A stretch of DNA of 64,000 nt from assembly GCF_002754935.1 (NCBI RefSeq), contig NZ_CP018092.1, positions 744,001 through 808,000 on the forward strand, read 5' to 3'. The notes below the pieces were generated by a model. That model worked only from the letters and a program-made list of their open reading frames with translations. It was not told the DNA's origin and searched no databases. Positions within the stretch are counted from its first letter, which is position 1, and each line of letters starts with the position of its first letter. This document shows, piece by piece, positions 29,628 to 31,487 of the stretch. Made by a program: the position numbers and the translations under genes. The DNA is from Thermostichus lividus PCC 6715 (lineage in GTDB: Bacteria; Cyanobacteriota; Cyanobacteriia; Thermosynechococcales; Thermosynechococcaceae).

Positions 29628-30047
29628 CTAAGCACCTGAGAGCCGCTGCTGCAGAATGGGACAAATCGTGTGCTCAGATGGCCGGGGAATGGTTGACCAA
29701 CCGTGCAGAAGCCCTTGCAGTTCCTGCTTGAGGTCTTGCATCTGTTGAATTTGCCGCTCCACCGCTGTTATCTGCTGCACGAGCTTTTCCTTGACGCGAT
29801 CGCAGGGCAATTCACCGCGATCGTAAATATCCAGTAGTTCTTTGATGTCTGCAAGGGTTAAGCCGAGGTGTTGGGCGCGCTTAATAAAGCTCAGGCGCAC
29901 AAAGACATCCTCACTGAAGAGCCGATAGCCCCCCTCTGTTCTGCCGCTGACTTTGAGTAAGCCTAACTCTGCGTAGTAGCGGATGGTTTTAATGGGGAGG
30001 CCACTGTGTTGGGCAACTGTACCGATGCGTTGTGCGGTTTCCTGCAT
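29628..30047 (-). CDS. MerR-family transcriptional regulator, probably metal-sensing
   Basis: 139 residues. The N-terminal winged helix has RIGTVAQHSGLPIKTIRYYAELGLL and GGYRLFSED, followed by a dimerisation coiled coil (about 80-115). Two Cys, in GELPCDRV and in HTICPIL, are placed as in metal-sensing MerR proteins (ZntR/CueR type), but no clear target gene adjoins it. AGGAGGGG precedes ATG 30047. It lies 26 bp after bioD and is probably co-transcribed with it. Confidence 0.88.
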   Translation of the reverse strand: MQETAQRIGTVAQHSGLPIKTIRYYAELGLLKVSGRTEGGYRLFSEDVFVRLSFIKRAQHLGLTLADIKELLDIYDRGELPCDRVKEKLVQQITAVERQIQQMQDLKQELQGLLHGWSTIPRPSEHTICPILQQRLSGA

Positions 30048-30073
30048 AAGCCCCTCCTATAGTGACCGGATAT

Positions 30074-30769
30074 TTAACCCCAGAGGTTGTCCAGCGGCCA
30101 GTCCGCCACGATCGCCACCAAATCTGCAGGGGAGTGAGTGCCATAGGGCAAAACCCCCAGTACCGGTACTTGAGTCAACTGGGTAAGGAAGTGTGGTGGT
30201 GTCCACTGTTGGATCTCGCTATCAGTGCACGGGGTGACACAGTTCAAGATCAGGCCGCGCAGTTCCAGCTTGTACTGGCGGGCAAGGGCAACATTGGCCA
30301 CAATCTGGGCGATCGCCCCCAAGCGCACCGTTGCCACTAACACAATGGGTAAGCGCCATGCTGCCGCCAAATCCGCCACCGTCCACTCCCACGTAATGGG
30401 TGACCCCAAACCACCAATCCCTTCAACGAGTAGGCGATCGCAGCGTTGCTGAAGTTTCTCATAGGTCTGCCACACTGGGACTAAGTCGATTTGCCGCTCT
30501 TCCAGCAGTGCAGCCATGGGTGGCGCAAGGGGGGCAGCAAAACTCACGGGGCACACTTCTTCAGGGGTTTGGTTCAGGGGCAAGGTGTCACAATAGTGTT
30601 GGCGATCGCCCGGCTCAACGGCGGTTCCGCTTTGCATCGGCTTAAAAATTCCCCACTGCTGCTGGGGGGCATACTGCTGCCCGTAGCTCCACAGCGCCGT
30701 CGTAATAACGGTTTTACCGACACCAGTGTCAACGCCGGTAATGAGTAGTGACTTGCAATGGTGCTCGAT
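30074..30769 (-). CDS. bioD: Dethiobiotin synthase, apparent ATC start codon
   Basis: 231 residues if counted from ATC 30769. It forms dethiobiotin from 7,8-diaminopelargonate, CO2 and ATP. The P-loop GVDTGVGKT lies at residues 11-19, and EGIGGLGSPI and the LRGLILNCV nucleotide region follow. The stop codon bounding the frame is at 30781-30779. Between it and the Met at 30637, which is beyond the P-loop, there is no ATG, GTG or TTG in frame. An ideal ribosome-binding site, AGGAGG (30780-30775), lies five bases before the ATC. Either a rare non-AUG start is used or a base error has removed the start. Divergent from the metOD1 gene. Confidence 0.88.
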   Translation of the reverse strand: MEHHCKSLLITGVDTGVGKTVITTALWSYGQQYAPQQQWGIFKPMQSGTAVEPGDRQHYCDTLPLNQTPEEVCPVSFAAPLAPPMAALLEERQIDLVPVWQTYEKLQQRCDRLLVEGIGGLGSPITWEWTVADLAAAWRLPIVLVATVRLGAIAQIVANVALARQYKLELRGLILNCVTPCTDSEIQQWTPPHFLTQLTQVPVLGVLPYGTHSPADLVAIVADWPLDNLWG

Positions 30770-30920
30770 AACCCCCTCCTATCGACAGCAACAAGACAAA
30801 ATTTTGTGAATAAATGTAACGCTCTGCAACACAATAGCTGTCTATCTCTAGAATAGACCGGTATAAGATTTTATAAATTTTTCATAACCAAAAACACCAC
30901 AAAACACGTTATAGGCGCTT

Positions 30921-31487
30921 ATGGCTAGTGCGTATATTGCTTCTTCTGAGGCTAACTCTGATGTTAGCACCCTTGAGGTGCCCCTAAAGCTATCTAGTTT
31001 CCTGCAAAGTTTGCTGAGCTATCTGGCCGGTACCCTTGAGGAGGTTGTGGGAGTTGACGATGCCTCGGGGTTCATTGCCCTTGTGGGGCAGCAGATGGGC
31101 AATGAGATCAATCAAATTTACCAAGAGGCAATGGGCGATCGCCTCGTGCCGCCGGAAGTTGTCGCCAAAATTCTTGTTGATCTGAAAAACCGCATTGAAG
31201 GGCAGTTTTTTATTGTTGAGCAGGATGCCGATCGCATTGTTCTTGGGAATCACCGCTGTCCTTTGGGCAGCGGGGTTGTGGGGCATCCATCCCTATGCAT
31301 GATGACCTCCAATGTCTTTGGCGTGATTACCGCCCACCACCTAGGCTATGCCAAAGTGTGTATTGAAGGGGCGATCGCGAACGGTGATCAGGGCTGTCGC
31401 GTCGTGGTTTATACCCGCCCTTCAGCAGCTGCCCAAGCCGCGATGGGTCGAGAGTACTACAAACTAGAGCAGTCAAAAGACGATTGA
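30921..31487 (+). CDS. metOD1 (methanogen output domain 1) protein
   Basis: 188 residues, no membrane segment. The C-terminal part carries IVLGNHRCPLG (Cys113), SLCMMTSNVFG (Cys126), Cys147 and Cys159, a pattern I associate with the metOD1 domain found in archaeal and cyanobacterial signalling proteins. The N-terminal half is helical (SFLQSLLSYLAGTLEEVVG). The ligand and reaction are unknown; the conserved Cys and His suggest a metal, cofactor or redox sensor. It lies 33 bp upstream of a diguanylate cyclase gene on the same strand, suggesting a sensor-output pair. Confidence 0.72.
   Translation: MASAYIASSEANSDVSTLEVPLKLSSFLQSLLSYLAGTLEEVVGVDDASGFIALVGQQMGNEINQIYQEAMGDRLVPPEVVAKILVDLKNRIEGQFFIVEQDADRIVLGNHRCPLGSGVVGHPSLCMMTSNVFGVITAHHLGYAKVCIEGAIANGDQGCRVVVYTRPSAAAQAAMGREYYKLEQSKDD

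Follow-up and report, generated by a model that had tools for sequence, protein, structure and literature searches.

Which codon begins translation of a dethiobiotin synthetase gene (bioD) whose reading frame offers no standard start codon ahead of its catalytic P-loop? The question is raised by bioD of Thermostichus lividus PCC 6715, encoded on the minus strand of the 64,000-nucleotide stretch of DNA analysed here (the window; Table 1). An earlier note on this DNA had reported that the bioD frame contains no ATG, GTG or TTG between an upstream in-frame TAG and an ATG at 30637, with the P-loop encoded inside that gap, and that AGGAGG ends five bases ahead of an ATC at 30769. These observations were reproduced on the minus strand, and the first standard start of the frame is not found ahead of codon 48. 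With 3 of the 64 codons counting as standard starts, roughly a tenth of frames would lack them over 47 codons by chance, and the length of the gap alone is unremarkable; what is notable is that homology to BioD and the catalytic P-loop fall within it.

Table 1. Features of the bioD locus, in window coordinates.
Feature	Position	Strand	Remark
merR-type regulator gene	29628..30047	-	26 bases past the bioD stop
TAA stop of bioD	30076-30074	-	frame open from ATC to here
bioD, dethiobiotin synthetase	30074..30769	-	231 aa counted from ATC; TIGR00347, 1a82 alignment
Earliest in-frame standard start, ATG	30635..30637	-	inside KPMQSG motif; a start here would delete the P-loop
P-loop GVDTGVGKT	30710..30736	-	precedes all standard starts of the bioD frame
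Putative ATC start codon of bioD	30767..30769	-	aligned codon ATC in 2/10, ATT in 8/10 same-genus genomes
Spacer GGGTT	30774-30770	-	between AGGAGG and ATC
Shine-Dalgarno AGGAGG	30775..30780	-	five-base spacer to ATC
In-frame TAG stop	30779..30781	-	shuts the bioD frame upstream; overlaps the Shine-Dalgarno
Divergent neighbour with MetOD1 domain	30921..31487	+	

The bioD product and its reading frame

The predicted product is assigned to the dethiobiotin synthetase family by score, P-loop and alignment. Specifically, its match to the NCBIfam bioD model TIGR00347 begins at residue 9 counted from ATC and scores 153.1 bits against a cut-off of 83.3, and it aligns over residues 6-216 (E 1.6e-20), with an intact P-loop, to the solved BioD structure 1a82, which we take to be that of E. 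coli BioD. This is the only bioD in the window genome, the next-best match having an E value of 1.7e-4. Matches to bioB and bioA above the family cut-offs are also present in the window genome (bioA 538 bits, cut-off 405).

A late first standard start is found in three of the 57 long open reading frames of the window, bioD included, when the threshold is set past codon 30. Each of the other two overlaps a neighbouring gene. One carries a GCV_T domain from residue 147 onward, past the point at which its first standard start occurs. In the other, a Shine-Dalgarno sequence accompanies an ATG at codon 38, within its overlap with a PilN gene; this frame matches no Pfam family, and homology is therefore uninformative for it.

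Searches for other features around the start returned null results: no Rfam element was matched in 30000-31200 (E up to 1), no sigma-70-like promoter was found in 30000-31000, and the RNA fold around the bioD start was nothing special (z-score 0.76).

The start codon across the genus

We compared the locus in 11 genomes of the same genus, of which 10 have sequence at the start (the contig of G027 begins inside bioD), and numbered codons from the GKT of the P-loop. The codon aligned with ATC 30769, codon -17, is ATC in two genomes and ATT in the other eight. The ATC pair consists of the window genome and its sister G026 (87% identity), and the ATT group of G019-G025 and G028. ATG, GTG or TTG occurs at codon -17 in none of the 10, and eight have no standard start codon anywhere from codon -26 to codon -12; the exceptions are G020 and G025, with an in-frame TTG at codon -19, two codons before ATT and one base past the Shine-Dalgarno core. 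A stop at codon -21 or -22 shuts the bioD frame in 8/10. The relatives also contain a GTG or ATG inside or directly after the P-loop, absent from the window genome; initiation at such a codon would truncate the P-loop. The earlier proposal of a start at ATC is thus strongly supported, a near-cognate ATC (2) or ATT (8) standing at this place in all 10 genomes.

The competing explanation offered by the earlier note was a substitution, a miscalled base or an indel in the assembly that masks a normal ATG, GTG or TTG. Such changes are an ordinary cause of missing starts, and the leader of the merR-type gene (ATAGGAGGGGCTTATG), whose start lies 722 bases downstream, is nearly identical to that of bioD, with TTATG for TTATC, that is, ATG in place of ATC. 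However, the sister genome has the same ATC, and eight more genomes have ATT at this codon. Two of these eight correspond to named Thermosynechococcus sp. records, M46_R2017_013 (L032) and M98_K2018_005 (L034), each matched through an identical 300-base stretch to L011 and L010, respectively, and showing the same start region. A normal start in the relatives was sought by alignment and found in none of the 10, and we reject the error explanation, to which we give almost no probability.

Members of the ATC pair differ from those of the ATT group by 0.47-0.60 at fourfold sites; the two members of the pair differ from each other by 0.46, and members of the group by 0.10-0.50. The divergence between the two clades is deep enough for a single substitution to have turned ATT or ATC into ATG, a change seen in none of the 10 genomes. 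The retention of AUU or AUC suggests selection on the start codon but is no proof of it; the genomes are related, and the difference between ATC and ATT may reflect a single event. Together, these comparisons look like a weak start kept for long within the genus rather than a sequencing error.

Where coding begins

Pairwise codon differences were counted among the 10 same-genus bioD genes in the alignment on GKT. The region from codon -32 to codon -18 has 565 differences, 67 synonymous and 498 non-synonymous, spread evenly over the three codon positions (369:356:429); several columns contain stops. By contrast, from codon -12 to codon -1 there are 246 synonymous versus 18 non-synonymous differences, and the third position dominates (30:9:231). 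Conservation is weak in the intervening codons -16 to -13 (16 synonymous versus 58 non-synonymous differences), the clear coding signal beginning only at -12; codons -16 and -15 encode E-H in the ATC pair and S-Q in the ATT group. At codon -17, AT is constant in 10/10 and the third base is only T or C. These patterns place the probable coding start of bioD between codons -18 and -13. Within this interval, codon -17 is the sole near-cognate codon common to all 10 genomes, and it lies at a normal Shine-Dalgarno distance. Translation of bioD therefore very likely starts, as far as comparison of these sequences can tell, at AUC in the window genome and at AUU in most of the genus. The predicted N-terminus is then Met-Glu-His-His-Cys from ATC in the window and Ser-Gln-His-Cys, with Met removed, from ATT in the relatives; for Thermosynechococcus species such as T. 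vestitus BP-1, the N-terminal peptide predicted from AUU is SQHCQSLLITGVDTGVGK, again with Met removed.

Initiation might instead occur at another near-cognate codon, either ATT at codon -8 (30742-30740) or a GTT, GTC, TTG or TTA just 5' of the ATC or ATT. The ATT at -8 is invariant in 10/10 and is the only other near-cognate shared by all genomes in columns -32 to -5. Further upstream, TTG is present at -19 in G020 and G025, and the GTC start of Streptomyces sigR is proven (PMC5472188). Nevertheless, the ATT at -8 has no Shine-Dalgarno sequence (-1.7 to +1.3 kcal/mol against the general bacterial 16S tail), the codons preceding it are conserved as coding from -12, and a start there would cut into the strand ahead of the P-loop; for want of a Shine-Dalgarno sequence we rejected this candidate. 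Codon -19 varies (GGG, GGC, TTA, TTG, GTC, ATC, TGC), as does codon -18, and neither is near-cognate throughout. We regard a start at any of these codons as distinctly unlikely compared with one at codon -17.

Translation could also begin upstream in another frame and then shift into the bioD frame. Out-of-frame upstream TTG codons are open across the site in the window, and TTG or ATG, most often TTG, is found so placed in 8/9 relatives. The sister genome G026, however, has no out-of-frame ATG, GTG or TTG open across the site in either frame within the 150 bases searched, and the candidate codons of the window are not at the places of those in other genomes. Because G026 lacks such a codon, this route was rejected, and its probability appears very small.

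Shine-Dalgarno strength

Duplex energies were scored against a general bacterial 16S tail, which may differ from the tail of this genome. On this scale, the Shine-Dalgarno sequence of the bioD leader scores -8.4 to -11.5 kcal/mol in all 10 same-genus genomes. In the window it reaches -10.7 kcal/mol with the general tail, a value equalled or exceeded in strength by four of 55 window open reading frames at their best candidate start; the median for these best starts is -5.9 kcal/mol with the same tail. A near-cognate codon behind a strong predicted Shine-Dalgarno sequence, as scored with the general tail, is thus conserved between species in 10/10.

The 16S tail of the window genome itself was sought by pattern twice: the first search gave five hits, all lacking the form GGATCACCTCCT, and the second gave no hit. 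No common pattern of a 16S rRNA 3' end was detected in the window genome, where this stretch may differ.

bioD starts outside the genus

To place the genus in context, we collected 103 bioD loci from outside it: 16 belong to other genera within the family, 84 come from a sample taken across the phylum and three are named loci. The 16 family loci derive from 18 genomes, among which G010 yielded no match and G004 just a distant match; the gene in G013 is split over two frames in a draft assembly. The phylum-wide loci are the 30 best-scoring and 54 of the same class among the matches listed, and a bioD match was obtained in 200 of 214 genomes. The start region examined was codons -26 to -12 from GKT, and two loci of the wider sample, L056 and L108, were read by eye.

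At least one ATG, GTG or TTG is present in this region in 103/103 loci, six of which have ATG at codon -12. The chance of a standard codon among 15 random codons is about half; single loci are thus weak evidence, whereas 103/103 versus 2/10 is meaningful. GTG or TTG without ATG is found in the region searched in 12 of the 16 family loci and in 25 of the 82 script-read loci of the wider sample. Weak bioD starts are therefore frequent outside the genus, and AUU or AUC is confined to this genus among the loci examined.

This frequency bears on a further reading that is compatible with the proposed start position, namely that the weak codon is merely tolerated because few copies of BioD are needed, with no regulation by IF3. 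The common occurrence of bioD genes with only GTG or TTG starts outside the genus favors it. In the other direction, the strong Shine-Dalgarno sequence is kept in 10/10, and third bases elsewhere in bioD have changed widely, yet no ATG arose at the start; both points are suggestive only. We put the probability of mere tolerance a little short of even.

Genomic context of bioD

To characterize the surroundings of bioD, we examined its neighbors, whose names, apart from the merR-type and MetOD1 genes of the window, were read by eye. On the 3' side, bioD is followed by the merR-type gene in the window genome, by a convergent gltX-like gene in G026 and by a glutathione-transferase-like gene in nine other same-genus loci. 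On the 5' side, a divergent MetOD1-like gene is found in the ATC pair, and a same-strand open reading frame of about 230 codons in several others. Because its MetOD1 gene is divergent, the window genome has no same-strand gene directly upstream of bioD. In L006, L007, L009 and L011, a same-strand frame ends shortly 5' of bioD (41 bases ahead of ATT in L006), and translation of bioD may be coupled to it in these loci. Since the neighbors differ between the clades and the start is constant, the codon goes with bioD and not with one operon. A TATAAT was spotted by eye in the alignment 34-40 bases ahead of ATT in L006 and L004.

Several additional observations were made at these and related loci. 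In L004 (G028), a transposase-like frame, identified by eye, lies directly upstream of bioD, and the AUU start and Shine-Dalgarno sequence are retained. Two adjacent, slightly overlapping segments of the L146 region of the window genome (G000:C1:1211485-1212752) match the bioA model, at its positions 156-418 and 2-167; jointly they cover the family, and this aminotransferase gene may be broken by a frameshift. In G025, an intact bioB is adjoined by fragments of another bioB (G025:C1:1422326-1422803; model positions 50-161 and 3-52), possibly a decayed tandem copy.

Discussion

Together, these observations support a start of bioD at ATC 30769 with low output, a joint claim, drawn from sequence, that we hold to be highly probable. 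In the mechanism we propose, the strong Shine-Dalgarno sequence would hold the 30S subunit at the bioD start, and initiator tRNA would pair with the AU of AUC (AUU in most relatives) notwithstanding the mismatch at the third base, so that BioD would begin with formyl-methionine. IF3 would destabilise the AUC or AUU initiation complexes, and BioD would be made at a low rate that depends on IF3 activity, the weak codon being retained throughout the genus.

Well-characterized natural starts beyond AUG, GUG and UUG are few (PMC5472188). The same source gives ATT as the start of infC in E. coli and ATC in Streptomyces, and describes a GTC start of Streptomyces sigR behind a very extensive AGGAGGTG site, repressed by IF3; impaired IF3 fidelity, or a change to a canonical start codon, raises SigR levels (PMC5472188). 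The results of an in-vitro survey indicate that the first two codon bases tolerate only Watson-Crick pairs and that weak third-base pairs are excluded by IF3 (PMC10158994). The bioD start matches this pattern, with AU kept, the third base mismatched and a strong Shine-Dalgarno sequence, and we infer from it a low, IF3-sensitive output. By analogy with infC and sigR, such an output of BioD is plausible, as is the suggestion in the earlier note that an ATC start would hold biotin synthesis at a low or tunable level.

The sigR and bioD genes are alike in that no canonical start is used, the ribosome site is strong and of AGGAGG type, and the codon is kept genus-wide; PMC5472188 reports no evidence of the GTC start in other genera, just as AUU and AUC at bioD are confined to one genus among the loci examined. 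They differ in that the sigR codon is GTC and not ATC or ATT, and in that sigR encodes a stress regulator co-transcribed with its antagonist. The sigR start was proven by codon changes and IF3 mutants, whereas that of bioD is placed by sequence comparison. The start codons of infC, AUU and AUC, are identical to those of bioD, but infC encodes IF3 itself, and its codon closes a feedback loop.

Enzyme genes may also be limited in this way. The AUU start of pcnB in E. coli limits its expression, a case that differs from bioD in function and lineage. Biotin is a cofactor of fatty-acid synthesis, and its overall production need not track the dose of BioD. We also considered whether scarcity of BioD might be explained by replacement of BioA by BioU, which can take the place of BioA; this idea was dropped, bioA being present in the window genome.

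IF3 is present in 11/11 same-genus genomes. In all 11 genomes, infC carries a GTG at a single conserved in-frame position, followed 12 codons later by an ATG; given the conserved GTG, infC of the genus need not use an AUU start. That the weak start of bioD was selected as regulation has at best an even chance, and perhaps appreciably less. A more specific version, in which bioD and not infC would be read through AUU or AUC in the genus, BioD would follow free IF3 and initiation fidelity, and this link between translation and biotin would be under selection, is tentative and in our judgment rather unlikely.

Genes started at AUU or AUC are a known but rare kind, to which bioD appears to be newly added. 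A bioD with a non-AUG start was not reported in any title or abstract listed in the literature searches, and a search for Thermosynechococcus, bioD and start codon jointly found nothing. Gene prediction depends on AUG, GUG and UUG starts, and the reading presented here predicts that automatic annotation will misplace the N-terminus of BioD, truncating the protein within the P-loop or beyond it. A metabolic gene with an AUU or AUC start kept over a genus would add a clean natural case and, if control by IF3 holds true, a vitamin pathway would be tied to the fidelity of translation initiation.
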